64,000 bases of DNA from an uncultured beta proteobacterium. Lineage in GTDB: Bacteria > Pseudomonadota > Gammaproteobacteria > Burkholderiales > Burkholderiaceae_C. A program made the position numbers and the translations under genes. The notes beneath the pieces were generated by a model. That model saw only the letters and a program-made list of their open reading frames with translations. It did no database searches and was not told the origin of the DNA. The stretch is from the NCBI GenBank assembly GCA_903823025.1, contig CAIJRK010000003.1, positions 80,078-144,077 on the forward strand, written 5' to 3'. Positions 7,851-27,713 of the stretch are shown here, piece by piece. The number at the start of each line of letters is the position of its first letter. The first letter of the stretch is position 1.

Positions 7851-8732
7851 ATGAGTCTTTCTTTGGTGCAAAGCCGCGCCTTGCTGGGTCTGGACGCTGC
7901 CGCTGTTACGGTGGAGGTTCATCTGGCGAATGGATTGCCCAGTTTTACTTTGGTCGGGTTGGCTGACGTGGAGGTCAAAGAGGCGCGTGAGCGGGTGCGT
8001 TGTGCGATTCAAAACTCGGGCCTTGAGTTCCCGTATAACAAACGCATCACCGTTAATTTGGCGCCAGCGGATTTGCCCAAAGATTCGGGACGTTTTGATT
8101 TGCCGATTGCGCTGGGTATTCTGGCCGCCAGCGGGCAGATTGATGCAGCCCGGCTGGCCGGTTATGAATTTGCCGGTGAGTTGTCGTTGTCCGGCGAATT
8201 GCGCCCGGTGCGCGGTGCGCTCGCCATGAGCTTGGCGTTGCACGCCGGACGGGTCGTGACCCAATTGGTGTTGCCCCCGGACAGTGCCGAAGAAGCCGCG
8301 CTGGTGCCTGATGCCCAGGTGTACCGGGCGCGTCATTTGCTGGACGTGGTTCAGCATTTTTTGCCACAAACCTCTGACGCGCCACCGCCGGAGCCGTCGC
8401 CGGGCTGGTCGCGTGTCACGGCCATTGCACACGCGCCAGCCCTTCAGTACCCGGACATGGCGGATGTCAAAGGCCAACTCGGTGCCAAACGGGCGCTGGA
8501 GATTGCAGCGGCGGGCGGTCACAGTTTGTTGCTGATGGGGCCGCCCGGCTCGGGCAAGTCGATGCTGGCGCAACGCTTTGCAGGTCTGCTTCCTGCCATG
8601 ACGACTGACGAGGCGCTGCAAAGTGCGGCGGTTGCCAGTTTGGGCGGGCACTTTTCATTAGACCGTTGGGCGCAGCGTCCTACTTGCAGTCCGCACCATA
8701 CGGCCAGTGCCGTGGCATTGGTCGGCGGCGGT
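7851..8732 (+). pseudogene. comM: comM (yifB), 5' part, disrupted by transposon
   Basis: N-terminal 294 codons of ComM, the Mg-chelatase-like AAA+ branch-migration helicase that helps integrate DNA during natural transformation. It starts MSLSLVQSRALLGLDAAAVTVEV after a GAGAGG ribosome site and contains the Walker A motif LLLMGPPGSGKSMLAQRF. The reading frame is normal up to ASAVALVGGG and then enters transposon sequence (CHFQKLLRHF, stop at 8765). Joined to codons from 41121, the protein continues SPPRPGEISLAHHG with no frame change, giving about 512 residues, the expected ComM length. The truncated product lacks Walker B and most of the AAA module, so it is almost surely inactive. Confidence 0.96.
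8728..8732. repeat. Target site duplication GCGGT, left copy
   Basis: GCGGT directly precedes the transposon's TGT terminus and is repeated exactly at 41116-41120 after the ACA terminus. Five-bp duplications are the signature of Tn7-like transposition. Confidence 0.95.
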
Positions 8733-8777
8733 TGTCATTTTCAGAAATTGCTGCGACATTTTTGAATAGGGTGCGAC
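8733..8777 (+). repeat. Left transposon end with TnsB-type binding repeats
   Basis: The terminal TGT (8733) is followed by two copies of GTGCGACAT-like sequence, with cores TGCGAC at 8752-8757 and 8772-8777, 20 bp apart. The same core recurs at the right end. Spaced repeats of about 20 bp with a terminal TGT are the usual TnsB binding array of Tn7-like elements. Confidence 0.8.
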
Positions 8778-8862
8778 ATAACGTAGTATTAGCGTTGTCA
8801 ATTTCCATTTCTGGTTGGTGCCCACATTTGCCGATGATAGGTGGGCATTCGACTCGTTAACT

Positions 8863-10692
8863 ATGCCTATCCAGTTCAAACAAGACATCCTGAAATCACC
8901 CAAAGTTGTCAGTCTCCCCAAGCTTAAATTCGAAAATATGGCGTTTGTGGCTTGGTCTTACAGTGGAATTTATAAGAATACACAAGATGATTCGCAGCCG
9001 CAGGTTCTCGTTGGCTTTCGACAGCTAATTGCTGACAAACTCCTTTCTGACGAAGTTACTCTTCGAAGAATTCCTCTTACCGCTGTCGGTCAAGTACGGA
9101 TTGGCTCAATTTGGCAAGCGGGGACCAGCAACTCTGCAATTCGCTTTGAAGCACGCTTCTTCGATGTCAGTTTTGAACCCGGTCATTGGCGGTTTGTTTC
9201 GTTTAATAGCTTGTGGGAAGCCAGAAGGCCAGACCTCTATCCCATGGCGATTCACCGTCTGAAGTACGTAAAAGATGAGAATTGGTATCTCGAATTCAAA
9301 TTGCCAAGCGGGGGAAAATTAATTGTTTCCTGCATCGAATTTTTCTCAAGGTGCTACGGCAGATCTGACGAGTTGAATCGAATTCTTGCAACATATAGTT
9401 GGAATGATGCGTACCAGCGTTTCTATGCACCACTAGATGAGCCACCAGAAGCCGACAAGTGGACAGTAAAGCTGAAAATGCGATTGCGTAATGGAGACAC
9501 CACTTTCTTGGCGCACGCGAAATACGATCCGTACACGCTGAACGCAGCCAAAAGCATTCACTCTCAAATTGCAGCTGAGTATTCTCCAGGCAATACACGC
9601 CCATTGTTTATTCAAATCGGCCCTTGGTTTCAGGGACCAGCAGAACTTTTCTGTAGTGGCATTCCGTTTGACGGCGGGCGCTCTTTTCTCGCTCATCAGA
9701 TCAATGGTTGTAGCGATCCTGACGGCATCTTGATTGAACGTAACCGTGAAAACACCAACAAAGTGGTAGAAGCTGAACAAGAGCTAGAGAGTGAGGGCAC
9801 TGCATGGGCAGGCGTGCACAAAAATCGCTTGGTTCGGCCTCCCTCAATACTTGATCTAACAGACATCGATGCACCTGACCATAGAGCAAATGGCGTGGAA
9901 GTTCTTGATGCAGTGTTTTTAACACTTGGAATCCCTCGACACATAGTTGATAAATATGAAGCGCGCATTAGCTCTGGGGCCAAGAATCGCCCCCAAGGAA
10001 ATGATGAGTTGACATACTCATCCGGCGAGCGAAAAGGCAATGACAAAGGAATTGGCTACGCATCACTTCATGCGCCAGTTCAGGTTGAGATTAATGGCGC
10101 TCTTTTAGATATTTGGCATGCAATACAGGCCCTAAAAGTTAAACATAGTGACATCATTAAAGCTGTAGATTGGTTTTGCATTTCAGATGGATTCCACTCA
10201 GAAGGAATTCCAAAGTTGATTGATCTTGAGGCGATGAAAGAAAATTCTGACTACATCATCCCAAACATTACAAGAAAATGGTGTTTTTTTGACTCAGACT
10301 TGAGTCGGATGCGCGGCATCATGGTTCTGCGGCTTATCGCCAGTGGTCTTCCAATTTACATTGTTGAAATTGAACGTCGAATTCGGAAGACTGAAGAAGC
10401 CGATGGTTCTATTAATGAATTAGAGGAACCATATCGTGGGTTCGTTACTGTAATTGGTTCAGAAAAGGATTTTCAAGTATGGCTAATCAGATTTATGTCT
10501 GACGTTCGGTATGTCCGAGGCATTGTGAGCAAACTAGTCCCTTTCTCTCCCGGTAGAGCAGACACATTCAACCACCAAAAATCACGTGGGGGATGTGTAT
10601 CGGGCGAATCAGCTGTTCTGAAAGCATTGGAAAAGATGGGGGTATTCATCGCAGCCAAGGGCATCAAGGCACAAAAAAGGATGATTTGGTAA
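8863..10692 (+). CDS. Large protein at left transposon end; candidate divergent TnsE
   Basis: A 609-residue protein from the ATG at 8863 (MPIQFKQDILKSPK). It is the first gene inside the left end. I do not recognise a family with certainty. The middle (LIVSCIEFFSRCYGRSDELN) and the C-terminal region (IYIVEIERRIRKTEE, then GRADTFNHQKSRGG) faintly resemble Tn7 TnsE, which ends with a conserved NHPKG-type segment after a beta-rich domain. TnsE (about 540 residues) directs Tn7 to replicating and conjugating DNA through the sliding clamp. In Tn7 tnsE sits with tnsABCD, whereas here the gene is 24 kb away at the other end. The TnsE call is inference from weak similarity; a cargo function is possible. 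Confidence 0.45.
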   Translation: MPIQFKQDILKSPKVVSLPKLKFENMAFVAWSYSGIYKNTQDDSQPQVLVGFRQLIADKLLSDEVTLRRIPLTAVGQVRIGSIWQAGTSNSAIRFEARFFDVSFEPGHWRFVSFNSLWEARRPDLYPMAIHRLKYVKDENWYLEFKLPSGGKLIVSCIEFFSRCYGRSDELNRILATYSWNDAYQRFYAPLDEPPEADKWTVKLKMRLRNGDTTFLAHAKYDPYTLNAAKSIHSQIAAEYSPGNTRPLFIQIGPWFQGPAELFCSGIPFDGGRSFLAHQINGCSDPDGILIERNRENTNKVVEAEQELESEGTAWAGVHKNRLVRPPSILDLTDIDAPDHRANGVEVLDAVFLTLGIPRHIVDKYEARISSGAKNRPQGNDELTYSSGERKGNDKGIGYASLHAPVQVEINGALLDIWHAIQALKVKHSDIIKAVDWFCISDGFHSEGIPKLIDLEAMKENSDYIIPNITRKWCFFDSDLSRMRGIMVLRLIASGLPIYIVEIERRIRKTEEADGSINELEEPYRGFVTVIGSEKDFQVWLIRFMSDVRYVRGIVSKLVPFSPGRADTFNHQKSRGGCVSGESAVLKALEKMGVFIAAKGIKAQKRMIW

Positions 10693-11148
10693 TCTCAGAA
10701 GACTACTCGCCCGATGACGGTTTAAGTCTCCAGTTGCCAATGCACCAATGGATGGGTGCGAAAAGTTCAGACTATACAGGGCGGAATCAATAGGTTAGAT
10801 TAACAATTGGCCCGTGGCTTCGAGTCACAGAGCTAACAAATCAGAGTACAAAGATTCTGAAGCGCTTGAATTATTCAATTCTGACTGGCACGGCGGAGAA
10901 TTCCCGCACAAAGGTGAAACTTGATCGCTTGCGTGGCAAGTGGCAGTTGAACACGAGCTAAGCCTTCAAAGGCTTACTCAAATATGGCCGTTTATGGGGC
11001 GGTTTTCGACTCCTGCTCCTCTCCCGAAATGTTGATTTAGTGGTTAGCGGGGCTAGTGGAGTCGGTCGTATCCGCCGGAAGCCGACGGCCACCAATACCT
11101 GTTTTCGGGTAGACCAGTTTCATGATTTAGGAGGCCGGTCAGCCGCGT
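10693..11148. other. Non-coding stretch, nothing recognised
   Basis: About 450 bp after the left-end gene with only short, low-quality ORFs on both strands. I see no RNA gene, repeat or protein fragment that I can name. Confidence 0.4.
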
Positions 11149-11538
11149 TCATGGGTTTATGGTACGACTATCTCTGGGGCAATTTAAATACAAGGTTCTG
11201 GCTGCAGACTGTACCGTTTCTGCGCCTGTCGTCCAGTTCACCATCAATAATTGTGAATAGTGCTTCCAAACCGAAGCGGCTACATCAAGAGTGACGTCTT
11301 GCCCGAGTTCACGGAGTGCGAGTTGGACATTGCGCGCGTCTGATACCTCATTTTCATCCAGTTGCAGAGCTACATTTGAGGCGCTGCTTTGGACCCATCG
11401 GGCTAAATCTGACGCAAATTTCTTCGCGTCTTCGTCCATCAGTCTGTCGAAATCAAGGCTTCCAAATTCACGGCCTACTGGTGCCATTGAATCCCAGGCC
11501 AAATCTTCGTCAGAGAATTTATATCGACCGCCAGGCAT
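11149..11538 (-). CDS. Hypothetical protein
   Basis: A 129-residue acidic protein (MPGGRYKFSDEDLAWDS, DRLMDEDAKKFASDLARWVQ) with no recognised domain. It overlaps the 3' end of the next upstream gene by 64 bp in a different frame. Both reading frames look protein-like, so this may be two coupled genes or one gene split by a frameshift near 11500. The C-terminal end (ARTLYLNCPRDSRTINP) looks eroded. Function unknown. Confidence 0.4.
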   Translation of the reverse strand: MPGGRYKFSDEDLAWDSMAPVGREFGSLDFDRLMDEDAKKFASDLARWVQSSASNVALQLDENEVSDARNVQLALRELGQDVTLDVAASVWKHYSQLLMVNWTTGAETVQSAARTLYLNCPRDSRTINP

Positions 11539-11927
11539 TGAACTTGCCGAAATTCGATCACTGGGGCCAATCCAGAACTCGTGATATCCGTAAACACGGC
11601 GACTCGATGAATGGCCCCATCAGCGGGTGTCTCTCCTACGTAAAACGCACGCCGAAATGTCAGATCGGTGCCATCCTCAAATTGGACGTGAACACTGTCA
11701 TTTGAAAAATCGGTCGCCAACAGGTTGCCTTCAAAAATGTCTTCAGCAGAGCGACCAAGTCTCTTTGAAAGTGCATGCTGCCAGTTCTCCAGCATACCGA
11801 TCCATGGCATGACTGCTCTTTGTTTGAGATGATTAAGCTCTTCTTGGGCTGCAGCCCGGATATCGTCCTGAGATGGAATGTCGTCCTCACTAAATATGCG
11901 GTCCAGGTATGCTCCGCGCGCGTCCAT
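11475..11927 (-). CDS. Hypothetical protein
   Basis: A 150-residue protein starting MDARGAYLDRIFSEDDIPSQ, with an alpha-helical N-terminus and a beta-rich middle (VHVQFEDGTDLTFRRAFYVG). No family is recognised. It overlaps the downstream hypothetical gene by 64 bp; the last 20 residues may come from a frameshift. It lies in the transposon cargo upstream of the LexA-like gene but on the opposite strand. Confidence 0.4.
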   Translation of the reverse strand: MDARGAYLDRIFSEDDIPSQDDIRAAAQEELNHLKQRAVMPWIGMLENWQHALSKRLGRSAEDIFEGNLLATDFSNDSVHVQFEDGTDLTFRRAFYVGETPADGAIHRVAVFTDITSSGLAPVIEFRQVQCLAVDINSLTKIWPGIQWHQ

Positions 11928-12488
11928 GGTTGCGATGGCGTAGTCAAGCTAGGACTGGAAATCAGTCGGCGGGGTCGGTGTACTCATATCAGACCTCCAT
12001 CTTTCATTGCGGACTTCAATGACATCCATTAGAAATCCGGAAGTGTTTGGGACGCTTCTAGCGGGCTTACGATAGCAGTTTTGGGTTCAAACGGCCTCTT
12101 CGCGGGTCATTCGCTTAGCGAGGAAGTTCCACAAAGGCGGCCAGCCAGATTGACCGTTTTTGGGTTCATTGTGCAACTGGGTCAATGCTGGCTCGGAAAC
12201 AATCTCTTTATGGAGCCGGTAAATCATGGCAGGTATATTCCCCGCCCCTTGATGCGTGTGACTTCGACAGTGTCCGAAGGGTACTGTACGCACCGCATTG
12301 GTGACGGTGCGTTCCAACGGTGGTGACCGCCTTGAAACACCTCAGCCCGTCGAAGGCCACTTGACAGGGCGGACAAAACCCATCGGCCAGCGCGACGCCA
12401 GCAACGTTGCATGGCACTTCTCGTGTGTGTCGTAGCGATCAACAGTCTTAGTAAGCCTGCTGAGCTTGGGGCTAATCAAGTTAAGTTA
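11928..12488. other. Mostly non-coding stretch with a possible decayed ORF
   Basis: No supported gene. A minus-strand frame at about 12087-12230 (RLHKEIVSEPALTQLHNEPK, then WPPLWNFLAKRMTREEAV and a stop) has natural-looking protein composition and may be the tail of a decayed gene, but I cannot name it. The rest shows nothing clear. Confidence 0.35.
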
Positions 12489-12512
12489 TTTAATGTACGT
12501 TCGTACATTAAA
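12489..12512. promoter_or_regulatory. Operator palindrome of the LexA-like gene
   Basis: Perfect inverted repeat with 11-bp arms TTTAATGTACG / CGTACATTAAA and a 2-bp centre (TT), ending 8 bp before the ATG of the LexA-like gene. Its position over the likely promoter and ribosome site fits an autoregulatory operator. The sequence differs from the CTG(N)10CAG box of housekeeping LexA, so it is probably read only by the adjacent repressor. Confidence 0.75.
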
Positions 12513-12520
12513 ATGGCGGA

Positions 12521-13159
12521 ATGGCACGCCCTAACAATGATGAAACTCATCTCAAGCGACTGAGAGACCATTTCGCTGTTAATCAGTGCATGCCTGCGTA
12601 TGCGGGTATCAGTCGTCTTGTTGGGTTTAAGACCAAGAATGCTGCAGTCTTGCTTGTTCAGAGGTTGAGGGACGCTGGGTACGTGAAAATCGTTGAGGGC
12701 GGTAAAGTCGTTCCACTACGCCGATTTTTTGAATTACCGCTAATGGACATGCATGTACGAGCTGGCGTGCCCGATGCGATTGATCCTCAGACGTGGGCAC
12801 CGGAGACTTTTACCCTTGAAGGGTTCCTGTTTGGCAAACCATCCAATTCTGTAGTTATTCGGGTCAAAGGTGACTCCATGCGTGATGCCGGAATATTTGA
12901 TGGTGATTTCGCTGTAGTAGAGAGGTCGCAGACAGCGAACAGCGGGCAATTTGTGGTTGCTGCTGTGGACGGTGAATTCACTCTTAAAGAGTTGAAGTAT
13001 GAGAATCAGCGTCCTGTACTGATGGCACATAACCCGAAGTACGCACCGATTTACCCTAAAGCTGATTTGATAATTTTCGGCGTCGTCCAAGGTATTGTCC
13101 GAAACTACGTTTCAGAGAAACAAATGCAAGCACCACCCCTAACAGGAGCAAAAACATGA
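12521..13159 (+). CDS. LexA-like self-cleaving repressor
   Basis: A 212-residue LexA/UmuD-type protein. The N-terminal 65 residues form a winged-helix DNA-binding domain (LKRLRDHFAV, AGISRLVGFKTKNAAVLLVQRL). The C-terminal S24 peptidase domain has the Ala81-Gly82 cleavage site (VRAGVPD), catalytic Ser119 (VKGDSMRDAG) and Lys156 (FTLKELK). All features for RecA-stimulated self-cleavage are present. It overlaps the next gene by 4 bp (ATGA) and has a perfect palindrome just upstream, so it likely represses its own operon until DNA damage. Housekeeping LexA is expected elsewhere; this is a cargo-specific regulator. Confidence 0.88.
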   Translation: MARPNNDETHLKRLRDHFAVNQCMPAYAGISRLVGFKTKNAAVLLVQRLRDAGYVKIVEGGKVVPLRRFFELPLMDMHVRAGVPDAIDPQTWAPETFTLEGFLFGKPSNSVVIRVKGDSMRDAGIFDGDFAVVERSQTANSGQFVVAAVDGEFTLKELKYENQRPVLMAHNPKYAPIYPKADLIIFGVVQGIVRNYVSEKQMQAPPLTGAKT

Positions 13160-13899
13160 CTTCAACAAGTCGAATTGAATGGACAGAGCAAACTTGGAAT
13201 CCAACGGTTGGATGCACCAAAATTTCCGCAGGATGCAAACATTGTTATGCCGAAGCTATGGCGCATCGATTGCAAGCGATGGGCACGCCAGGTTACGAAA
13301 AAGGTTTTGAGCTAACTATTCTGCCGCAGCGCTTGGACGATCCGCTAAAGCGAAAGAAACCAACAACGTATTTTGTCAACTCGATGTCGGATTTGTTTCA
13401 TGACCTTGTTCCTGATGAACACATTGATGCCGTCTTTCGTGTTATTCAACAAACACCTCACCATACGTATCAAATTTTGACAAAACGTGCTGCACGAATG
13501 GCACGATATTTCAAAACACGTGCAGTCCCCATCAATGCTTGGCTGGGTGTTTCAGTGGAAAACCGCAAGCAAGGTGTTCCACGAATTAAATACTTGCGAA
13601 AAGTACCTGCACATATCCGTTTTCTGTCTGTGGAGCCGCTTCTGGAAGACGTTGGAGAACTTGATTTGACAAACATTCATTGGGTGATTGTTGGCGGAGA
13701 ATCGGGACCAAAGGCCCGGCCCATGAAGCAGGAGTGGGCAGATTCGGTGCATACGCAATGTGACGAGCAAGGGGTTGCCTTTTTCTTCAAGCAATGGGGT
13801 GGTTGGGGTGCTGATGGCAAGAAACGTGCAAAGGCTGCTAATGGTCGGCTACTGAATGGGCGGACCTGGGATGCAATGCCTGAAAATGTGGGTATGTAA
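13156..13899 (+). CDS. DUF5131 (phage Gp37/Gp68-like) three-Cys-motif protein
   Basis: A 247-residue member of the phage Gp37/Gp68 family (DUF5131). It begins SRIEWTEQTWNPTVGCTKIS and has Cys20, Cys27 and Cys30 (C-x6-C-x2-C, then YAEAMAHRL), a radical-SAM-like cysteine cluster. Further family marks are YFVNSMSDLFHDLVPDEHI, YQILTKRA, WLGVSVEN, RFLSVEPLLEDV and VIVGGESGPKARPM. From what I recall, these proteins recur beside TcmP proteins, which are named as their partners. The chemical reaction is not established. It is translationally coupled to the LexA-like repressor and followed by tcmP. Confidence 0.88.
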   Translation: MTSTSRIEWTEQTWNPTVGCTKISAGCKHCYAEAMAHRLQAMGTPGYEKGFELTILPQRLDDPLKRKKPTTYFVNSMSDLFHDLVPDEHIDAVFRVIQQTPHHTYQILTKRAARMARYFKTRAVPINAWLGVSVENRKQGVPRIKYLRKVPAHIRFLSVEPLLEDVGELDLTNIHWVIVGGESGPKARPMKQEWADSVHTQCDEQGVAFFFKQWGGWGADGKKRAKAANGRLLNGRTWDAMPENVGM

Positions 13900-13964
13900 T
13901 GCAAGCTTGACTGACAGGGAGGTTGGGCAGTGGCTTGCTAAATTAAATAACTAACAGCACACTC

Positions 13965-15269
13965 ATGGTCAAACACGCAGACAAATACCAATGGACAATC
14001 GGCACTTTACCGCCACCCATCGATCCCCATAGTTTGGTGAAGCACAAAATAGTGCGCGGCTACTTGGAGCGTTACATCCAGGTACTGATGAGCAACTACA
14101 ACATGGAAAAACTCACTCTGTCCATTGTTGATGGATTTGCTGGCGGGGGCGAATATTCATCAGAAGACGGGTCACCGTTTCACGAAGGGTCACCGTTGAT
14201 TGCGTTGACAACCATTGCAGCCAAAGAAACCGAACTTAATGTCGGTCGCTCAAAGCCTCGAAAGGTCGATGCAAAGTATTATTTTGTTGAAAAAGTCAAA
14301 TCCAACTTCAACTACCTTGATAAGTTACTCCGTACTCGGTTTCCATCATCAAGATTTGGCGTTGACATCGAGTTGCTGAACGGTACATTTCAGGATATGG
14401 CGAGCGGGATCATTGCTGACATCCACCGTCGCGCTGGGGGCGAGAGAGCAATTTTCCTTCTTGATCAATATTCGTATGATCAAGTGACAGGGCCAATGTT
14501 GAAATTTATTTTTTCACAGGTGAAGGGTGCTGAGGTCATTTTGACATTCGCCGTTGACTCCCTGATTTCGTTTCTCGCTGACAACAAGGCAAGCCGTGCA
14601 AAGTTGGCACAAATGGGAATGGATGCACACATTGATTGGGTTGCACTTGAAGAGTTGAGGTCAGCGCCACCGGCAACGTGGCGAGCAGCCATTCAACGTA
14701 ACTTGGCGAGAGGCCTTATTGAGTCAAGTGGCGCAAAAAACTTCACTATTTTTTACATCACGCCAATGGGCAACACCTCTTGGACATATTGGTTCATTCA
14801 TCTCTCAAACAGTCCCAAGGCTCGTGATGTCATGATGGAACTTCATTGGCAGTCTGCCAACCACTTTTCGCACTACTTGGAGCCTGATATTTTCACGCTC
14901 GGGTATCAAGCGAACCTTGATCGAAACGCCACCATGCAGGATGCACTTGAATTGGGGGAAAGTCATCAGTTTGATGCATTAGCAGCCAATCGGTGCAGGA
15001 CTGGGTTGACTGAGAAATTGGTGCCAGCCATTTACGACGGAAAACCAACTCAATTTTTTCAATTGCTTGACTCAATGGGAAGTCTGACGCCTGCTACGGT
15101 AGAAATGATTCGTGATGCTATAGACCCAGCGATCCGTTGCGGTGACATTTTGGTGACTTCAACGGACGGGGTTAAAAGAACCAAAGGACATTCCGTGAAA
15201 GCGAACGATGTCTTGCAGCCTTCACCTCAAATGACGCTGATTTCCTTGCCCGGAATGGGCTACCGTTAG
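13965..15269 (+). CDS. tcmP: Three-Cys-motif partner protein TcmP (first copy)
   Basis: A 434-residue TcmP-family protein. Family marks are SLVKHKIVRGYLERYIQVL near the N-terminus and LSIVDGFAGGGEY, similar to a methyltransferase motif I loop. Other marks are AIFLLDQYSYDQVTGPML and a C-terminal half with FTLGYQANLDRNATMQDAL. It is the third gene of the LexA-like operon, 65 bp after the DUF5131 gene. Its last 48 bp overlap convergently with a second tcmP. TcmP biochemical activity is unknown; a role with the three-Cys protein in modification or defence is inference. Confidence 0.85.
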   Translation: MVKHADKYQWTIGTLPPPIDPHSLVKHKIVRGYLERYIQVLMSNYNMEKLTLSIVDGFAGGGEYSSEDGSPFHEGSPLIALTTIAAKETELNVGRSKPRKVDAKYYFVEKVKSNFNYLDKLLRTRFPSSRFGVDIELLNGTFQDMASGIIADIHRRAGGERAIFLLDQYSYDQVTGPMLKFIFSQVKGAEVILTFAVDSLISFLADNKASRAKLAQMGMDAHIDWVALEELRSAPPATWRAAIQRNLARGLIESSGAKNFTIFYITPMGNTSWTYWFIHLSNSPKARDVMMELHWQSANHFSHYLEPDIFTLGYQANLDRNATMQDALELGESHQFDALAANRCRTGLTEKLVPAIYDGKPTQFFQLLDSMGSLTPATVEMIRDAIDPAIRCGDILVTSTDGVKRTKGHSVKANDVLQPSPQMTLISLPGMGYR

Positions 15270-16460
15270 TTGTAACCTTTCTGATTTTTGAAAGTGAAGT
15301 GGACGCTTCGGGCGTTTGGTCGTAGAGTCCAAATTGATGACCTGTCCACTGGCAATTAAACGCGACAAGGATATTTGAAGGGTGTCTGGCAACCAGTCCG
15401 TTTTTTCGAGAATGTCCGCAAATTCGGTTTGACCAATTGCCTGAATACCAGAGGATAAAAAGTCCACCCAGTAAGCATCAACGACTGTTTCATCAACAGT
15501 TGACGGCTCAGTGTTGGTGTCTGGTTCGTCTGAAAACATGTCACGGACACGAGATTGTTTCTCTCGCTTGTCAAGTTTTTTCGTGGCCCGAATTTGTTTT
15601 TGAATCAGGTCAACGCCCTGTGAAATTTCCATGAACTCAATCAATCCTTTTGGATGAGAGGTCAAGTAGATTAAATGGTATTTCGGGCGCTCCTTACTTG
15701 GGTCCATCACTCGAACGTAGCCAGTGCGTGGACGATATTCATTTTTTGTTGGCGATGGCACACGACTTTTGATCCCATCACGATAGCTGTTCAGAAGCAG
15801 CTTTTCTCGCTCGTGTGGCAAATGCCCATCAAGGGTTTGAACTGTATCGTGAGATGTGCCCAAAAAGGCGGCAATGTCTGACTCCCAATCGGTCATCGCA
15901 GCGGTTCGATTGATAAAGTCGTAAATGAAGTTGATCAGAAACTCAGACCGTGGTCTTTGAAGTAAGGGTCGTAATTGATCCACGCCGACATCCTTCCATC
16001 CTTTGGGATCGATGAAGAAAAATACGAAAGCTTGGTCACCACACCAAGTCAATATGTCTTCGCGAAGATCCAAAAAATTCCCTTGAAGGTATTTTGAATT
16101 TACACCTTCAGGTGTGAATGCTTGCAGGTAAGCGGACAACCGTTTAAAAGCGCGTAGATTTTTTTCGATGTACAGCGCACGTATGTTTGCCTTAACCCCC
16201 AGGCTCAATAACTTTTTGCGACACGAATCCATGGTCTGCAACGAAATGGCAATTGAAGTGCCTGCCATTGATTCTGACTCATCACCCCAAGGGCCTGCAA
16301 AGCAGTCAACGTACCCGATTTCCACAATCCGTTCGCGTTTGGCACTCATGCCGATGATCAGGATGAGCTTTTCAAGATACGCTTCGAGCAACTTATGCTT
16401 CACCAGAGCCTGCTCACGGCCAATGTAGGTGTCAGGGATGAACTGTGGGATTTGAGTCAT
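15222..16460 (-). CDS. tcmP: Three-Cys-motif partner protein TcmP (second copy)
   Basis: A 412-residue TcmP-family protein with the same layout as the first copy: ALVKHKLLEAYLEKLILII, then IGYVDCFAGPWGDESESMAG, then FVFFFIDPKGWKDVGVDQL, LINFIYDFINRTAAM and YHLIYLTSHPKGLIEFMEI. It is only distantly related to the neighbouring TcmP, so it is not a recent duplication. Its 3' end overlaps the other tcmP by 48 bp in convergent orientation. It has its own promoter region on the minus strand and so is not under the same LexA-like operator. Confidence 0.85.
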   Translation of the reverse strand: MTQIPQFIPDTYIGREQALVKHKLLEAYLEKLILIIGMSAKRERIVEIGYVDCFAGPWGDESESMAGTSIAISLQTMDSCRKKLLSLGVKANIRALYIEKNLRAFKRLSAYLQAFTPEGVNSKYLQGNFLDLREDILTWCGDQAFVFFFIDPKGWKDVGVDQLRPLLQRPRSEFLINFIYDFINRTAAMTDWESDIAAFLGTSHDTVQTLDGHLPHEREKLLLNSYRDGIKSRVPSPTKNEYRPRTGYVRVMDPSKERPKYHLIYLTSHPKGLIEFMEISQGVDLIQKQIRATKKLDKREKQSRVRDMFSDEPDTNTEPSTVDETVVDAYWVDFLSSGIQAIGQTEFADILEKTDWLPDTLQISLSRLIASGQVINLDSTTKRPKRPLHFQKSERLQLTVAHSGQGNQRHLR

Positions 16461-16765
16461 ATTGACTGTAGATTCATAGATGGCTATTGCACATCGGTCT
16501 GAGCCGCTGGCGTGGTGGACACAACGAGTTTGAGTTCAGTCAAGAGCTTTCATGTGTGCTACCGATTGGCACACAATTTCAGACGCCAGATTTTTTCAAA
16601 ATCCTCTCGACGGATGTTACTCGGTACTGCGTTTTCTCATTCCCATATTTTCACGGGCTCAGAGATCGCGAACAGTCTCTTTTAGATTGTGTGTGTCGGC
16701 GCAAAGATTTGCCGCAGGGACATCGTGCGGGCTTTGGCTGAGAGAAGCAGGTGCTGGGGCATAAA
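16461..16765. other. Intergenic region, nothing recognised
   Basis: Upstream region of the second tcmP. Short ORFs here (16487-16764) have no recognisable content and start codons without ribosome sites. It probably holds the minus-strand tcmP promoter. Confidence 0.4.
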
Positions 16766-16812
16766 TATCGCACTTATTTGTCATATATCTCATATGGCAA
16801 ATAAGTGCGATA
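16766..16812. repeat. Long inverted repeat upstream of the DUF6471/type ISP locus
   Basis: Two 21-bp arms (TATCGCACTTATTTGTCATAT and its complement with one mismatch) separated by five bases (ATCTC). The pair ends 30 bp before the ATG of the DUF6471 remnant. There is no T-run, so it is more likely an operator or control element than a terminator. A strong hairpin in the mRNA leader is the other option. It lies where transcription of the restriction-modification gene would begin. Confidence 0.75.
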
Positions 16813-16842
16813 GTATTTGACGCATTGATATGGAACGATGCA

Positions 16843-17062
16843 ATGCGTGACGAAGATTGGAAAAAGTGGGCGACCAACACCATCAAGGCAGAACTGGCCA
16901 AAGTTGGTGTCGACTATGAAGAATTAGTGCGCCGTTCCGCTGCTATTGGTGTGCAAAAAAGCTATACCGCGCATTGCGGCCAAGATCAATCGTGGCACGT
17001 TTAGCTTCATGTTTTTCATGCAGTGCATGAAGGCATTAGGAAAAACCGAAATTCGGCTGTGA
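16843..17062 (+). pseudogene. DUF6471-like small regulator, frameshifted
   Basis: Frame one reads MRDEDWKKWATNTIKAELAK then VGVDYEELVRRSAAIGVQKS. After TATACC an extra G shifts the frame; the next frame reads AAKINRGTFSFMFFMQCMKA then LGKTEIRL and stops at 17062. Together they make the complete about 72-residue DUF6471 domain, a small helix-turn-helix-like protein. The unshifted frame stops at about residue 54. A one-base insertion (or a sequencing error) in ACCGCGCATT explains it. It sits 61 bp upstream of the type ISP gene and may have been its regulator. Confidence 0.7.
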
Positions 17063-17123
17063 CCTTTGCTGCTAAAGCTATCCAACACCCGGTGCCCACC
17101 GGCAACAAACAACAAAGTTACTC

Positions 17124-20100
17124 ATGACCACCACTTTTAGCGATCTACTCGACGAGCTGACCGAAGCAACCCAAACAAACCGCGACAAGGGCACACAATT
17201 CGAGTTGCTTATTGCCAATTATTTGAAGACCGATCCCCAATATGCAGACCGTCTCAGCGATGTTTGGCTATGGGGTGAATGGCCTGGTCGCTGGGGCAGT
17301 GATGATGGCATCGACATCGTTGCCCGTGAGCATGGCACTGGCGACTATTGGGCGATTCAATGCAAATTTTTCTTACCAACACATTCACTTCAAAAAGCCG
17401 ACATTGATTCGTTCTTTACAGCATCCGGCAAGCTCTTTACGGACAACGAAGCAACGCACAGTTTCAGTAACCGGCTGTTGGTATGCACTACTGATAAATG
17501 GAGTTCCAAGGCTGAGGAAGCGCTGAATGGCCAGACCATTCCGGTATCGCGCCTATGGTTCAAGGATTTGTCCGATAGCCCTATTGACTGGTCACAGTTC
17601 AGTCTCTCCAACATCAAGGATATACGTCTCAAAAAGAAAAAGGAACTCCGCCCTCATCAAAGTGAAGCCACCAGCCTTGTCATTGAAGGATTTTCTAGCA
17701 ATGATCGAGGCAAGCTCATCATGGCTTGTGGTACCGGCAAAACTTTTACATCACTGCGTCTGGCGGAACAGCTCACGCCGCCCAACGGGCGAATTCTATT
17801 TCTCGCGCCATCAATATCGCTGGTTTCGCAAAGCCTGCGCGAATGGACAGCCGAAGCGCTCACGCCGATTCATGCCTTTGTCGTTTGTTCAGATACCAAG
17901 GTTGGTAAGAATGAAGAAGATATTCGCACCCACGATTTGGCCTACCCGGCCACTACGGACGCAAACAAGTTAGCGTTAGCTGCTCAGGCCATTAGTGCCG
18001 ATCGGCGTACCGTGGTGTTTTCGACTTACCAATCGATTCAGGTGGTTGCAGATGCGCAGAAAAAAGGCTTTGGTGAATTCGACCTCATTATTTGTGATGA
18101 AGCACACCGCACCACGGGTCTGACCTTACCGGGTGAAGACGACTCAGAATTTAACAAGGTTCACCACAATCACATCGTTCGCGCCAAGAAGCGGCTTTAC
18201 ATGACGGCCACCCCCCGTATTTATGCCGATGCTTCAAAAACGAAAGCGGGCAAAAGTAATGCGGTTTTGTATTCGATGGATGACGTATCCACCTACGGTC
18301 CCGAGTTTTACCGTCTGGGTTTTGGTAAGGCTGTTACCAAAGATTTGCTGTCTGAATACAAGGTGCTGATCGTTGCCGTTGAAGAAAGCAAGATGGCAAA
18401 TCTGGCAAACGCATTCAATAACGCCTACAAAATTGACGGCAAGACGGCCATTGATATTCGCTTTGCGACCAAAATTATCGGTAGTTGGAAAGGGCTTTCA
18501 AAGCAGGGGTTAAAGCTGATCGCTGAAGACGGCCAAGAGGAAGCCATGACCGAGGACGTGGCCCCGATGCGCCGCGCAGTCGCATTCTCAAGAACAATCA
18601 AAGATTCGATTCAAACGAAAGATATTTTCGGCAAGCTGGTCACGTTGTATCAGCAGTCGCACACCGATGATGAGGACGGTAATTTGGCTCGGTGTACGCT
18701 TGGCCATGTGGATGGCGGCATGAATGCGCTAAAACGGCAAACCTCTATTGACTGGCTCAAAGGCAATGTAGACGAGGGTGAATGCCGAATCCTCTCAAAC
18801 GCACGCTGCCTGTCCGAAGGCATTGATGTTCCGGCACTCGATGCGGTGGTGTTTTTTGACACACGAGAATCTATTGTGGACATCGTTCAGTCAGTTGGTC
18901 GCGTCATGCGCAAGAGCGATGGAAAGAAATACGGTTACATCATCCTGCCAGTCTGTATTCCATCCGAGAAGGTCAAGGACTACAACACCTACATCGAGAG
19001 CGACCCGCAATTCAAAGGTATCTGGAAGGTCATTAAAGCCTTGCGTGCCCATGATGAATCATTGGTTGATGAGGCAGAATTTCGACGCAAGATCAAGGTG
19101 ATCGGTGAGGGTGCTGGCGGTGGTGACGACGGTGGCCACGGTAAGGGTTGTGGCGGCGGTACTTTGCCGTTGGACTTTCCCATGTTGCCCATTGATGCCA
19201 TTGGCGATGCCGTTTATGCAGCGATTCCCCAGAAGTTGGGCGACCGCGAATACTGGAGTGAATGGGCCAAGAGCGTTGCGACGATTTCCGACCGATTGAG
19301 TGAGCGTATCAGAAGTTTGTTATCCAATCCTACCGCAAGAAGTGCCTTTGACGGTTTTTTGAAGGGTTTGCGCGACAACCTGAATCCAGCCGTCAGTGAA
19401 ACCGATGCCATTGAAATGCTGGCCCAGCACATCATCACCCGTCCGGTGTTTGAAGCGCTGTTCGAGGGCTATTCATTCACGAAAAACAATGCGGTGTCGA
19501 AGGCCTTGCAATCCGTGACCGAGGTCATGGATGATCACGCAGTAAGCAGTGAAACCGAAAGTCTGGAAAAGTTTTACGCCAACATCCGTGAGCGTGTCAG
19601 TCTGGCAAAAAGCGACAAGTCACGTCAGGAAATCATTCGCAACCTGTACGACACTTTTTTCAATAACGCTTTCCCTCGCATGGCCCAGCGCTTGGGCATT
19701 GTTTATACGCCGGTGGAGGTGGTCGATTTCATCATCCACAGCACCGAGGCGGCACTACGCAAGCACTTCAAAACCGGCCTGACTGACAAGGGTGTTCAGA
19801 TCGTTGATCCCTTCACCGGGACGGGCACATTTATCGTCCGCCTGTTGCAGTCGGGTTTGATCAAACCCGAGGACTTGGCGCATAAATACCAGCACGAACT
19901 GCACGCCAATGAACTGGTCTTGTTGGCCTACTACATTGCCGCCATCAATATTGAAAGCAGCTATCACGCCCTGACCAATGAATATCGGTCTTTTGAGGGC
20001 ATCGTCTTGACCGATACCTTCCAAATGGGCGAGAACGATAAACAGCAAGACTTTGAAGGGTTTTCGCCGGAAAACAGCGAGCGAGTCAATCGACAGCGGC

Positions 20101-21926
20101 AGCAGGATATCCGCGTTGTTATTAGCAATCCCCCGTATTCGGCACAACAGGATAGTCAGAACGACAACAATCAGAATATTGGTTACCCGTCACTTGACGG
20201 GCGAATTCGCGATACCTACGCAGCCAAATCTGGTGCTGCAAACAAAAAGAATCTTTACGACTCCTACATTCGCGCTATACGCTGGGCCTCAGACCGCATT
20301 CATGAAAAGGGCATCGTAGCGTTTGTCACCAATGGCTCATTTCTGGATGCGAACAACATGGACGGGTTACGCAAATGTCTGACTGAGGAATACAGTCACC
20401 TGTACGTTTTCAACCTGCGCGGCAATCAGCGAACCTCTGGTGAGGAATCCAGAAGCGAGGGTGGGAAAATTTTCGGGTCAGGCTCACGCACTCCGGTTGC
20501 CATCACGCTGATGGTCAAAGACCCAGTACATTCTGGGCCTTGCGAGTTGCACTACCACGACATTGGTGACTACCTTAGCCGGGAGGAAAAGCTGGCCATC
20601 ATTGACGGCTTTGGCAGTATCGACGGCATGAATTGGCAAAGCCTTGCCCCCAATGCTGAGGGGGATTGGGCAGAGCAACGTGATCCGGCATTTGACAAGT
20701 TTCTACCGCTTGCAAACAAAGATGATGAGTTCGTCGGGTTGTTTGAAATTTGGTCGAATGGTTTACTTGCCGCACGGGATGCATGGGTTTACAATTTTTC
20801 TCGCGATGCATTAAAGCAAAACATGTCTCGAATGACGGATACCTACAACGCTGAAGTCGATAAGTATGCAAAAGTCTGTAGCGACAAACCTAAAGCTCAA
20901 TGGCCTAGTCCTGATAGTGTTGTGGATAGTGACCCGAAGAAAATTAGCTGGTCAAGCAGTCTGTTGCCGAATGTAGCCAGAGGTCGTAAAGCCACTTTTG
21001 ACTCCACTTCAATAGTTACCGGGATGTATCGCCCATTCAGTAAGTGTTATTTTTATTTTGACAGCTTGATGAACCATCGTGTGGCACAGTGGCTCCGACT
21101 TGCCCCAACATCAAGGCATTGGAATATTGTTATATCCGCTACGGGTATCGGTGCCAGCAAAACATTCTCCGCACTGGTTTCGACGTGTATTCCAAATTAC
21201 CACATGCACGACACCGGTCAATGTTTTCCCCTCTACTGGTATGAAAAATCAGAGGATATGCGCAAGTCCGCTGACGATATGTTTGCCACGACTGGCACTC
21301 CAGACGCTGATGGTTACATTCGCCACGATACGATTACCGATTGGGCTCTGGCTACCTTTCAAAAGCACTATGCCGATTCGACCATCATCAAAGAAGACAT
21401 CTTTTGGTACGTCTATGGCATCCTGCATTCACCTGAATACAAGCACCGGTTCGCCACCGACCTCAAGCGGATGTTGCCGCGCATCCCTTTCGCCGAAAAT
21501 TTCCATGCCTTTTGTGAGGCGGGACGGGCGCTGGGAAAATGGCACTTGGCCTATGAGTCGGTTGAACCCTATGCGCTGACCGAGGAAAGCAAGCGCCTGG
21601 TAATGGAACCAGGCGACTACCGGGTGACCAAGATGAGTTTTGGCAAAAAAGACGGTAAGCCTGACAAGACGGTCATTGTCTATAACGAGCATCTGACCCT
21701 GCGCGGCATCCCGATGCAAGCCTATGACTACGTGGTCAATGGCAAACCCGCCATTGAATGGATCATGGAGCGGTACGCCCAAACCACCGACAAGGATAGT
21801 GGCATCAAAAACGATCCCAATACTTGGTCAACCGATCATCGCTATATCGTTGATTTGGTTAAACGTATTGTGCGTGTCAGTGTTGAGAGTGCCGAGCTTG
21901 TAAAGAGTTTGCCAAATTTAAATTAA
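17124..21926 (+). CDS. Type ISP restriction-modification enzyme
   Basis: Single-chain 1600-residue restriction-modification enzyme of the LlaBIII/LlaGI (type ISP) kind. Order: an N-terminal Mrr-like nuclease (Asp64 in DDGIDIVA, Gln79-x-Lys81 in AIQCKF), then a superfamily 2 helicase with Walker A ACGTGKT at 201-207, DEAH at 325-328 and the late QSVGRVMRKSDGKKYGYI. A coupler follows, then an N6-adenine methyltransferase with VDPFTGTGTF near 892 and NPPY near 1002, then the C-terminal target-recognition region. Known members methylate one strand of an asymmetric site and cut after head-to-head translocation. The protein looks intact. Its 3' end overlaps the convergent neighbour's stop by 4 bp. 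Confidence 0.93.
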   Translation: MTTTFSDLLDELTEATQTNRDKGTQFELLIANYLKTDPQYADRLSDVWLWGEWPGRWGSDDGIDIVAREHGTGDYWAIQCKFFLPTHSLQKADIDSFFTASGKLFTDNEATHSFSNRLLVCTTDKWSSKAEEALNGQTIPVSRLWFKDLSDSPIDWSQFSLSNIKDIRLKKKKELRPHQSEATSLVIEGFSSNDRGKLIMACGTGKTFTSLRLAEQLTPPNGRILFLAPSISLVSQSLREWTAEALTPIHAFVVCSDTKVGKNEEDIRTHDLAYPATTDANKLALAAQAISADRRTVVFSTYQSIQVVADAQKKGFGEFDLIICDEAHRTTGLTLPGEDDSEFNKVHHNHIVRAKKRLYMTATPRIYADASKTKAGKSNAVLYSMDDVSTYGPEFYRLGFGKAVTKDLLSEYKVLIVAVEESKMANLANAFNNAYKIDGKTAIDIRFATKIIGSWKGLSKQGLKLIAEDGQEEAMTEDVAPMRRAVAFSRTIKDSIQTKDIFGKLVTLYQQSHTDDEDGNLARCTLGHVDGGMNALKRQTSIDWLKGNVDEGECRILSNARCLSEGIDVPALDAVVFFDTRESIVDIVQSVGRVMRKSDGKKYGYIILPVCIPSEKVKDYNTYIESDPQFKGIWKVIKALRAHDESLVDEAEFRRKIKVIGEGAGGGDDGGHGKGCGGGTLPLDFPMLPIDAIGDAVYAAIPQKLGDREYWSEWAKSVATISDRLSERIRSLLSNPTARSAFDGFLKGLRDNLNPAVSETDAIEMLAQHIITRPVFEALFEGYSFTKNNAVSKALQSVTEVMDDHAVSSETESLEKFYANIRERVSLAKSDKSRQEIIRNLYDTFFNNAFPRMAQRLGIVYTPVEVVDFIIHSTEAALRKHFKTGLTDKGVQIVDPFTGTGTFIVRLLQSGLIKPEDLAHKYQHELHANELVLLAYYIAAINIESSYHALTNEYRSFEGIVLTDTFQMGENDKQQDFEGFSPENSERVNRQRQQDIRVVISNPPYSAQQDSQNDNNQNIGYPSLDGRIRDTYAAKSGAANKKNLYDSYIRAIRWASDRIHEKGIVAFVTNGSFLDANNMDGLRKCLTEEYSHLYVFNLRGNQRTSGEESRSEGGKIFGSGSRTPVAITLMVKDPVHSGPCELHYHDIGDYLSREEKLAIIDGFGSIDGMNWQSLAPNAEGDWAEQRDPAFDKFLPLANKDDEFVGLFEIWSNGLLAARDAWVYNFSRDALKQNMSRMTDTYNAEVDKYAKVCSDKPKAQWPSPDSVVDSDPKKISWSSSLLPNVARGRKATFDSTSIVTGMYRPFSKCYFYFDSLMNHRVAQWLRLAPTSRHWNIVISATGIGASKTFSALVSTCIPNYHMHDTGQCFPLYWYEKSEDMRKSADDMFATTGTPDADGYIRHDTITDWALATFQKHYADSTIIKEDIFWYVYGILHSPEYKHRFATDLKRMLPRIPFAENFHAFCEAGRALGKWHLAYESVEPYALTEESKRLVMEPGDYRVTKMSFGKKDGKPDKTVIVYNEHLTLRGIPMQAYDYVVNGKPAIEWIMERYAQTTDKDSGIKNDPNTWSTDHRYIVDLVKRIVRVSVESAELVKSLPNLN

Positions 21927-22177
21927 GCAAACGGATTTTTGACTACCTTGACAGGCTTTAGCTTCACCGTATCTGGAAGCTGCTTCTCCGCCTCCAGTGC
22001 CTTGACGATACGGCCAATGAGCGATTGCAGCTCTTTGGCCAGCGTCAGGCCCGCTTGGTCTTTGGTGAGCACCACGTCACCTGTGATTGACACGCGATCG
22101 ACCCGGTTCTCAATCTCCAAGTCACCGATGCGCAGCACATCACTTTCGTTGGCGTAAGGCTTGAATTCTGATGTCAT
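21923..22177 (-). CDS. Small hypothetical protein next to the nuclease gene
   Basis: An 84-residue protein from the ATG at 22177 (MTSEFKPYANESDVLRIGDL), preceded by a good ribosome site (GAGGAAC). It has a beta-rich N-terminus (LEIENRVDRVSITGDVVLTK) followed by a helix (GLTLAKELQSLIGRIVKALE). It lies 11 bp after the nuclease stop, so the two form an operon. It overlaps the end of the type ISP gene by 4 bp. Function unknown; a role as a partner of the nuclease or the restriction system is only suggested by position. Confidence 0.65.
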   Translation of the reverse strand: MTSEFKPYANESDVLRIGDLEIENRVDRVSITGDVVLTKDQAGLTLAKELQSLIGRIVKALEAEKQLPDTVKLKPVKVVKNPFA

Positions 22178-22188
22178 AGCTGAGTTCC

Positions 22189-23052
22189 TCAAGGTTGAAG
22201 GGCGCGTTTGATGGCGTCCATGATGCTGCGGGAGAGGTCACGCAGCGTAAATTCATCTTCGGTTGGACTCTTTGGCTTGTTACCCCCGCGCGAAGAGGTC
22301 GGTTTTGGCAGCGCCATGCCACTGTCTCGGATTTTCTGGGACAGCCCCGGCAAGGCACTGACACCAATCATTTTCTCCAGATCGGAGACCGAGATCGAGG
22401 AATAATCACGGGTATCGTCGTTCGTGATCACGTAGGCTCCAGCCCGCTGTTGGGCAGGGCTGTAGAGCACTTTCCAAAGATGTGTCGGCACCAGCACGTT
22501 TCCGATACGCTGAATATCGTTGCCGATAAAAGCAGGCCCCGACACCACATAAACTTCACCTTCGTTGAGCGCCAGTTGTCGCGCCGACTTTTCAATACCA
22601 GCCCAGACCCCCGCATTGTTGGCATGTATTTGCGGAACCATGTTGGCCAGTGAAAACGATTCTGCTTGCGCTGATCGGGTAGCGAAATCGGCATTGGGGG
22701 CCATGTGCCCACGATCGTAGCCCGAGCGGGCGTAGTCGCGCAGTTCAGCCCGATCCTGAGTGGGTAAGGCGCTCTCAGCATGAAATGAATCCTTCCTGGA
22801 TAGCGTCTTTGCCGCCACCAGATTAGCCCGTGTCAGGTGCTCGGCTGAGTAGAGGGGGGTTCGGCTGATACCGGAGTGCAACACAGCGAAAGCCTCAAAG
22901 CAGACCTCCTGTGTACGAGCCTGTAGTTTGGGATTAGTGATGGTGGGCGCAACGCCGCTGGCGAAGTGTGCAGAACATTGAGTAGCAGCAGCCCAAGTCG
23001 GCATCGCAAGGCAGGCAACCAGAGACAAAGTAAGCGGGAGAAATCGTGACAT
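22189..23052 (-). CDS. Secreted DNA/RNA non-specific endonuclease
   Basis: A NUC-family (beta-beta-alpha-metal) endonuclease. From the ATG at 23052 it has a signal peptide (MSRFLPLTLSLVACLAMPTWA); the track start at 23097 is also possible. The catalytic DRGHMAPNADF motif is intact, followed by SFSLANMVPQIHANNAGVW containing the metal-binding Asn. It then continues EVYVVSGPAFIG and VPTHLWKVLYSP, as in serratial nuclease relatives. A C-terminal tail of about 40 charged residues is unusual. It is probably exported. It is divergent from the small HRSGCHRWH protein. Confidence 0.88.
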   Translation of the reverse strand: MSRFLPLTLSLVACLAMPTWAAATQCSAHFASGVAPTITNPKLQARTQEVCFEAFAVLHSGISRTPLYSAEHLTRANLVAAKTLSRKDSFHAESALPTQDRAELRDYARSGYDRGHMAPNADFATRSAQAESFSLANMVPQIHANNAGVWAGIEKSARQLALNEGEVYVVSGPAFIGNDIQRIGNVLVPTHLWKVLYSPAQQRAGAYVITNDDTRDYSSISVSDLEKMIGVSALPGLSQKIRDSGMALPKPTSSRGGNKPKSPTEDEFTLRDLSRSIMDAIKRALQP

Positions 23053-23135
23053 GAGCAAGAGTACGTAGTAAGGCATGGACAGCTTGATGTGAAACACATC
23101 CGTTGCAGCTTAAATTTAAGCGACACTAACAAGCA

Positions 23136-23399
23136 ATGAACAGATATTTAACGATTCTCGCGTATTTCGCACTCATTTCGTTGGTTTCTACGGTCAGTCC
23201 TCCTGCTTCCGCCCACCGAAGTGGGTGTCATCGGTGGCACAGTTGCCCCTCGGACACGGGTAGTTATGTCTGTGGCGACACAGGACACAGTAACGAATGC
23301 GGGCGATCTGACGTAGTCTCAGCTTCCCGAAAAAACGCTCATAGCTCTAAACTGTCGGCCAAACCAGCACGAGCACTGAACAACCACCTACTTAAGTAG
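23136..23399 (+). CDS. Small secreted Cys/His-rich protein
   Basis: An 87-residue protein with a signal peptide (MNRYLTILAYFALISLVSTV ending at ASA). It then has the motif HRSGCHRWHSCPSDTGSYVC with GDTGHSNECG. This Cys/His motif is widespread as a short extracellular domain, sometimes attached to secreted nucleases. It is divergent from the non-specific endonuclease 84 bp away. The last codons (NNHLLK, stop) lie within a 20-bp palindrome, so the original C-terminus may have been replaced. Function unknown, probably periplasmic or secreted. Confidence 0.65.
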   Translation: MNRYLTILAYFALISLVSTVSPPASAHRSGCHRWHSCPSDTGSYVCGDTGHSNECGRSDVVSASRKNAHSSKLSAKPARALNNHLLK

Positions 23400-23542
23400 G
23401 TGGGTTCGCGCGGGTCGCAGAGGACTGGAAGTCCACCCGATTCGCTCCCCGCGCTGGGGATGCAATTGCGAATACTTGTGTGGTTCATCCAACGCCAAAG
23501 AGAAGAAATAGCATGGCTAAAGCTGACCGGCTGGAAGCCGGT
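23384..23542. repeat. Pair of hairpins, possible IS200/IS605-type end remnant
   Basis: A perfect 20-bp palindrome CCACCTACTTAAGTAGGTGG (23384-23403) is followed about 120 bp later by a second hairpin ACCGGCT-GGA-AGCCGGT (23526-23542) and GGTTTTAACC. Subterminal hairpins of this kind are typical of IS200/IS605 family ends. No tnpA or tnpB is present. The identification is inference from shape. Confidence 0.35.
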
Positions 23543-24092
23543 GGTTTTAACCTTGTGATTGAAAATAAAAAATTCTGGCACCGGTCAACTTTATCCGAAG
23601 CCGACCGTCAAAATTGAAAGTCAGCAATGGAGCGCCACGTACTTCGGTTGGGCAGCGATTGCGGGTATTGACGACTGGCAGCTTGATGGCAGCCCAATTG
23701 CATGATTTTCGATGCCGGTGTGCCGCCGCTCACAGGCTTCGGCATCGTGCCCGAAGCGGTCAGCCGCCGCTGGATGGAGCAGTCATTCGCCGACGCTGTC
23801 GGTTACAGACAGCGGACATTCGCCATGCAGGTATGGGTTTCATCCACTGGGCGGCTCATGTGCAGCGTTAGCGGGTACTGACTAACGGCTGCTTTCTTGA
23901 AGTGCAGCAACAAAACTTTGGGCGCAAGACAGCAGTTATTAATGTCGGCCAGACATGGTGCAACAAACTCCAGCCATTCGCCTGTTGAAATTGCGTTCCT
24001 TCAATTAGTCATTCAGTTTCCAGGCGCTGGTTCATATCAATGAAAAGAGGTGAGAAGAAATACGGTTAGTGCGCATCTTCCCCCTTACTTAT
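23543..24092. other. Intergenic region with one imperfect hairpin
   Basis: No supported gene. A short hairpin (CAGCGTTAG ... CTAACGGCTG, about 23867-23896) stands out. The 85-residue plus-strand ORF at 23614 has no recognisable protein content. The end of the minus-strand HEPN-STAND gene lies at 24093. Confidence 0.4.
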
Positions 24093-26783: not shown

Positions 26784-27244
26784 AGCGTTCCCCCTAAATT
26801 GTTATTCTGGATCGAAAATTCAACCGCTTCACCGCAAGTATCGCCGTTTTCGTCGTAGTAGACACCCCCAACAAAATTCAGAAATCAATGTCAGGTATCG
26901 GGCAAGCAGTTTCGGAAGTTGTATAGCCGCTTCGGGTCTGTTGAAGTCAGTGGCCGTGAAAATCGACATTTTCTTGCTCGGTGTCTGCAAGAGACCCATA
27001 CCCGACGCTCACCGGAACCGCATGAATCCCGCCGAAAAGTGGAAAGCTGACTTTCAATTTCGCCGGAAGCAGTCGCTCATCCTCGAGGCCAAACAATTGA
27101 AAGCGGGCGGCCAAACGGAGATGCGAATTTACTTGACTGTGCGGCTCCTGGGCAGCGGTTGCGATCCTTTACAAATGACTGTTTTCACGACAAGTATATA
27201 GATTGATCTCCGTGGTGCCATGCTGACGCCACGGAGTTGGCAAA
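26784..27244. other. Intergenic region, one strong hairpin
   Basis: No supported gene; the 148-residue plus ORF at 26755 overlaps the start of the HEPN-STAND gene and has no recognised content. A hairpin with stem CTCCGTGG / CCACGGAG lies at about 27209-27236, next to the tyrosine recombinase remnant. It has no T-run. Confidence 0.35.
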
Positions 27245-27375
27245 TCAATCCTTTGTCCGCTCAGTCATTTCAAGGTCATCCTCTACTTCAATGCCCAAGT
27301 AGCGTACCGTGCCCACTAGCTTGGTGTGCCCCAAGAGCAATTGCACAGCCCGAAGGTTCCTGGTTCGTCTGTAAA
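27245..27375 (-). pseudogene. Tyrosine recombinase, C-terminal remnant
   Basis: Too short for the ORF track. The minus strand reads YRRTRNLRAVQLLLGHTKLV followed by GTVRYLGIEVEDD and LEMTERTKD, stop at 27245. It contains the GHT histidine and the RYLGIE nucleophile tyrosine of phage-type integrases. An in-frame TAG just upstream (about 27377) and the absence of the rest of the gene show it is a tail fragment. It marks an older integration event within the cargo. Confidence 0.75.
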
Positions 27376-27392
27376 TGACCTACGCTGGCGAT

Positions 27393-27605
27393 TTAGGGGG
27401 TCTTGCCGTGTCCGGGTATGCCAGGTGCGGGTGATCGGCCGCCGCCGGACACTCCGCCGGTCGTGCTGGGTCGCCCGCCCCAGCCAGTTCCTGTTCCTGT
27501 TCCTGTTCCTGTACCATTGGACCCGCCACCCCACCCACCGTTTCCGCCTTTGCCGCTTCCCTGTGCACTCCCTGCCTTACTACCGCCTACGCTACCTTTT
27601 GCCAT
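27393..27605 (-). CDS. Small glycine-rich protein
   Basis: A 70-residue Gly-rich protein (MAKGSVGGSKAGSAQGSGKG), with four TG dipeptides encoded by a CCTGTT tandem repeat near 27505-27530. It ends with RPSTTGGVSGGGRSPAPG. Small proteins with a similar PSTTGNPSGGGR ending are common unnamed genes in mobile regions. A good ribosome site (AGAGGTGATT) precedes the ATG at 27605. It is divergent from the 343-residue gene. Function unknown; the sequence suggests disorder. Confidence 0.5.
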   Translation of the reverse strand: MAKGSVGGSKAGSAQGSGKGGNGGWGGGSNGTGTGTGTGTGWGGRPSTTGGVSGGGRSPAPGIPGHGKTP

Positions 27606-27713
27606 GAAAATCACCTCTTGCAACGCCCCGAGCCGACCGAATGGCGGCGTTCTTGTCGGGCGTCGGGATTGATCTTGCAACGAATTAAGTTGACCGACAG
27701 AGGAAACGTGGAA

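Follow-up and report, generated by a model that had tools for sequence, protein, structure and literature searches.

The comM-targeting elements, a family that includes Acinetobacter resistance islands, carry remote homologues of TnsE. Faure et al. 2023 describe these homologues, less than 10% identical to the TnsE of Tn7, in Tn6022-like elements, where they lie close to the left end and far from the core (PMC10293859); for A. johnsonii Tn6022, the same paper shows that TnsF selects comM jointly with TniQ. According to a 2024 review, almost all glmS- and comM-targeting elements carry TnsE, mechanistic information comes only from Tn7, and no experiment shows plasmid selection by any TnsE other than that of Tn7 (PMC11406308). 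TnsE outside Tn7 eludes standard annotation, so that in databases the plasmid-jumping half of comM-targeting elements mostly goes unseen. Here we analyze the gene at the left end of an element contained in a 64,000-nucleotide stretch of DNA (the window). We conclude, with a probability of about 0.87, that its product is TnsE, the second of two target selectors in a Tn6022-type transposon whose left-end module has seemingly been replaced by recombination.

A Tn6022-type element interrupts comM

The window contains a Tn7-like element whose flanks, once joined without it, restore an intact 512-aa ComM frame, the break falling at codon 294 (Table 1). Its tnsA-B-C-tniQ-tnsF operon and its insertion into comM with a 5-bp duplication identify it as Tn6022-type. 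Nearly all related elements examined have such a pair of repeats, likewise spaced by 20 bp, at their left ends. The 486-aa gene following tniQ fits TnsF in position, size and its Cys-rich N-terminus, the first ~190 residues of which hold repeated CxxC pairs. The cargo, at 10.7–34.9 kb of the window, is a defense island that includes, in addition to the tabulated genes, an S24 peptidase and DUF5131/TcmP pairs.

As the sequence-only reading had stated, the outermost gene at the left end encodes a 609-residue protein: its frame runs uninterrupted through 609 codons, starting with an ATG located 131 bp inward of the end, and no gene of the element precedes it. A TTG at 8815 is also a possible start, and the antisense frame over the gene contains many stops.

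Table 1 Features of the element and of the interrupted comM gene, in window positions
Feature	Position	Strand	Basis or remark
comM 5' part, codons 1-294	7851..8732	+	
Target-site duplication GCGGT, left copy	8728..8732		
Tn7-like (Tn6022-type) element, 32,383 bp	8733..41115		TGT...ACA ends, 5-bp duplication, restored comM frame
Two 20-bp left-end repeats, TTGCTGCGACA type	8739..8778		presumed TnsB sites
tnsE (divergent)	8863..10692	+	609 aa; profile, fold, position in relatives
TnsE N-terminal region, residues 1-295	8863..9747	+	mostly beta strands; AlphaFold2 pLDDT mostly 75-95
Conserved SCIEFFSRCYG segment, residues 156-166	9328..9360	+	aligned with PQLELAR.. of Tn7 TnsE
TnsE linker, residues 297-411	9751..10095	+	probably disordered; pLDDT mostly <50
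TnsE C-terminal domain, residues 412-595	10096..10647	+	matches TnsE C-terminal structures 5d17, 5d16, 9d5l
Type ISP restriction-modification enzyme, 1600 aa	17124-21926		
DNA/RNA non-specific endonuclease	22189-23097		
NB-ARC STAND protein	24093-26783		
CBASS Cap15 + CD-NTase	30861-32595		
tnsF (former tniE/orf3), 486 aa	34942..36402	-	after tniQ; Cys-rich first ~190 residues
tniQ	36399..37490	-	PF06527 2.7e-22
tnsC	37487..38386	-	PF05621 TniB 1.8e-70
tnsB	38383..40515	-	PF09299, rve; start codon uncertain, overlaps tnsA
tnsA	40301..40999	-	PF08722, PF08721
Four right-end repeats, GTCGCA core (40982, 41013, 41037, 41091)	40973..41111		presumed TnsB sites
Target-site duplication GCGGT, right copy	41116..41120		
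comM 3' part	41121..41777	+	

Profile and fold comparisons support a TnsE identity for the left-end protein

The faint resemblance to TnsE noted in the sequence-only reading was invisible to family models and was borne out by comparison of profiles and folds. Scans of the 609-aa protein with Pfam and NCBIfam models gave no match, nor did PADLOC and PDB sequence searches. PF18623 matched neither the protein nor its relatives above cut-off and found nothing in its own genome; control genomes gave no match either. This failure is a matter of sequence detectability rather than a functional trait, and Tn6022-type TnsE copies were weakly detected by sequence in Faure et al. 2023 as well (PMC10293859). 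No relatives were found in genome contigs with the single window protein as query, or in viral contigs with the TnsE family alignment.

Relatives gathered from genomes and plasmids were aligned, and their profile was compared with that of eight Tn7-type TnsE proteins. The Tn7 TnsE query retrieved records annotated as TnsE, the top ones 99.8% identical to it, and all comparisons after that retrieval used database sequences only. With hhalign, positions 34-580 aligned collinearly with 17-514 of the Tn7-type profile over 466 columns, at ~13% identity to Tn7 TnsE. The score of 30.2 was higher than that of any control: the 150 column permutations reached at most 28.7, the 100 block shuffles at most 23.5, and the reversed profile 15.7; the program's own probability for the alignment is only 3.6%.

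A structure search had been fixed beforehand as the test capable of refuting the TnsE assignment. When the AlphaFold2 model of the window protein (mean pLDDT 70.9) was compared by Foldseek with 350,542 PDB chains, TnsE C-terminal domains occupied ranks 1-5 with probabilities of 0.77-0.91, and the next match, a non-TnsE chain, had a probability of 0.07. A second modeled allele, the G056 protein (~38-39% identical to the window TnsE; pLDDT 69.2), gave TnsE at rank 1 and as all high-probability matches, up to 0.96, the best non-TnsE match reaching 0.15. Weak matches of the G056 model to RPA (OB-fold) in the PDB fit the SSB-like N-terminus of TnsE, for which two SSB/PriB-like folds have been reported (PMC10293859). 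Since the E-values of the best TnsE matches of the two alleles are 0.03-0.15, each single test is modest. Combined with gene position, the fold and profile tests make a convincing case for TnsE identity, and the assignment of the 609-aa protein as a divergent TnsE is supported.

Across 15 divergent members of the window TnsE family, 28 columns are invariant. The beta-clamp motif of Tn7 TnsE lies, as we take it, at the segment PQLELARSLF; opposite it stands SCIEFFSRCYG, with Cys instead of Gln, and the Gln is not kept in the family. A scan of the window TnsE for generic clamp patterns gave no match. The same patterns miss Tn7 TnsE itself, and their absence here therefore says nothing.

Related elements occupy comM and other sites, including plasmids

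At nine further loci in beta-, gamma- and deltaproteobacteria (G056, G009, Guyparkeria, Halomonas, L032, L033, L036, L037 and L039), tnsE is the gene immediately next to the left end of an element that splits comM at codon 294. Among the genomes of 101 relatives, full-length TnsE and TnsF are confined to the same three. In a Methylobacter MAG (L031:4088-4440), the comM sequence matched ahead of the left end covers codons 1-106 only, and this may reflect an element at another comM position or a decayed comM.

Elements of the family were also found elsewhere. A Methylobacter plasmid carries one encoding TnsABC-TniQ-TnsF-TnsE (NZ_CP091425.1:53547-85112; duplication AGTGC), which interrupts a PDDEXK-nuclease gene. 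Joining the flanks makes the reading frame of that gene whole again; the plasmid has conjugation genes. A. baumannii pS21-2 contains an element of the same composition at a non-comM site (duplication TAAGC), and an A. seifertii plasmid another at a non-comM site (duplication CTGGC), with tniQ and tnsF interrupted. The complete congeneric genome G009 holds, besides its comM insertion, a decayed second copy (L055/L056) with intact ends and the duplication ATCGT at a non-comM chromosomal site, about 2.1827-2.2197 Mb of G009:C1, within a polysaccharide gene cluster. The comM loci, together with plasmid and chromosomal copies flanked by different duplications, indicate that the family uses comM and other sites, plasmids included.

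In G009, dnaA is at position ~400, and the second copy of the element is ~0.27 Mb away from the chromosomal point facing that gene, with a ~12% probability of this arising by chance; a dif site was looked for in this genome and not found. The location is suggestive when set beside the terminus preference of Tn7, and we leave it out of the evidence. Annotation divides the tnsE of L012, an element on a P. putida plasmid, into two ORFs; the ends of this element could not be fixed. For some plasmid copies of tnsE, such as L015, no tnsABC could be detected up to 20 kb away; tnsE can therefore persist after the loss of its element. On several different Acinetobacter plasmids (L011, L013, L015 and L018), tnsE follows a CBASS-like set, that is, genes annotated as nucleotidyltransferase, ThiF, Mov34/JAB, SAVED or nuclease. 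Genome G054, which is without TnsF, encodes a 533-aa protein (L005:1318-2919) that weakly matches the N-terminal half of the window TnsE, with an E-value of 5.9e-5 and with a IPCLELIRFYFGSS motif in the match; judging from its sequence, it may represent a broader family that shares a TnsE-like N-terminus.

The TnsE module differs among elements with a closely similar core

The core proteins of the window element are closely similar to those of the congeneric elements G056 and G009, with identities of 90/90% for TnsA, 92/85% for TnsB, 95/93% for TnsC, 84/78% for TniQ and 82/79% for TnsF. Against this 78-95%, TnsE is only 39/37% identical, which suggests that the TnsE module was replaced through recombination with a different member of this family. 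The TnsE proteins of G056 and G009 are 76% identical to each other, and that of the window is nearer to Methylobacter copies (43-47%, the plasmid copy being nearest at 46-47%) and to deltaproteobacterial copies (44%). In two trees it groups with a deltaproteobacterial copy, with supports of 95/97 and 83/96. Similarity to the left-end DNA of G056 and G009 ends at ~8780, about 45 bp inside the element.

The same low identity could arise if tnsE evolved very fast with no exchange of modules, and the AU test leaves room for this, since it disfavors yet does not reject the grouping of the three TnsE proteins (window, G056, G009) as one clade (p 0.08 and 0.13). We nevertheless hold fast evolution to be unlikely: a TnsE clade of window and G056, the closest pair by core identity, is rejected (p 3e-73), the G056 and G009 proteins are similar to each other while that of the window is nearer to copies from other hosts, and DNA similarity stops close to the left end. 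Exchange of the left-end module by recombination is the simplest reading of this mosaic divergence; in the open-licence literature available to us, we found no earlier report of such an exchange. More tentatively, and with the odds somewhat against it, tnsE might be a generally exchangeable left-end cassette of comM elements, by which near-identical transposases and selectors are combined with different TnsE proteins that may tune the plasmids or forks entered. Elements with the same core and different TnsE constitute a natural experiment on what TnsE recognizes.

Proposed role of the window TnsE and alternatives

Judging from the family, TniQ and TnsF would send the element into comM codon 294, as demonstrated by others for A. 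johnsonii Tn6022. By analogy with Tn7, TnsE would recognize replication-associated DNA, above all incoming plasmids, and would activate TnsABC there, at sites without fixed sequence. The window TnsE is predicted to contact the replication fork, to recruit TnsC and to prefer plasmids, and TnsE is the presumptive director of the family's non-comM and plasmid insertions. Two targeting pathways had been proposed from the sequence, for the chromosomal site and for mobile plasmids. The plasmid-borne relatives lend indirect support to such a two-pathway life; the chromosomal branch needs amendment, being attributable to TniQ with TnsF rather than to TniQ alone.

No family model matches the protein, and in Acinetobacter plasmids its gene stands directly after CBASS-type genes, as might be expected of unrelated cargo, e.g. 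a defense or nucleic-acid-binding protein lying near the left end by chance. We rejected this identity, which is largely refuted and very improbable, on the grounds that the position beside the comM break is kept in nine other elements from three proteobacterial classes, that the gene co-occurs with TnsF, and that the fold matches TnsE ahead of every other PDB chain. It is also rather improbable that the protein descends from TnsE and no longer selects plasmids, acting instead at the left end, for example in an accessory role or in target immunity. Its ~13% identity to Tn7 TnsE, the missing Gln of the presumed clamp motif and the restriction of functional work to Tn7 TnsE (PMC11406308) would leave room for such a change, whereas the conservation of the 28 invariant columns, the presence of related elements on plasmids at non-comM sites and the second G009 insertion with its own duplication argue against it.

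Comparison with known systems

Compared with Tn7 TnsE of E. coli, the window protein, here read as TnsE, shares a collinear profile and the fold of the C-terminal domain. It differs in its low identity, in its length (609 versus 538 aa), in having no Gln at the presumed clamp-motif position, and in the location of its gene outside a tnsABCD-type operon. The Methylobacter sp. YRD-M1 plasmid element agrees with the window element in its ends, gene order, TnsE (47%), TnsC (81%) and TcmP-type cargo, and differs in its target, a plasmid PDDEXK-nuclease gene with the duplication AGTGC instead of comM. In the Tn6022 family, too, a remote TnsE, likewise identified by structural comparison, has its gene close to the left end of a comM insertion, and a distant tnsA-B-C-tniQ-tnsF operon occupies the other strand (PMC10293859). 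The split gene layout, which had been considered unusual, is the rule in these elements (PMC10293859), and a remote left-end TnsE in a comM element is largely known. What distinguishes the window element from the described family members is its host, which falls in the genus group of a Rhodoferax MAG, its different TnsE allele and a module that looks replaced relative to congeneric elements; the new observation is the combination of a closely similar core (78-95%) with only 37-39% TnsE identity to those elements, which suggests replacement.
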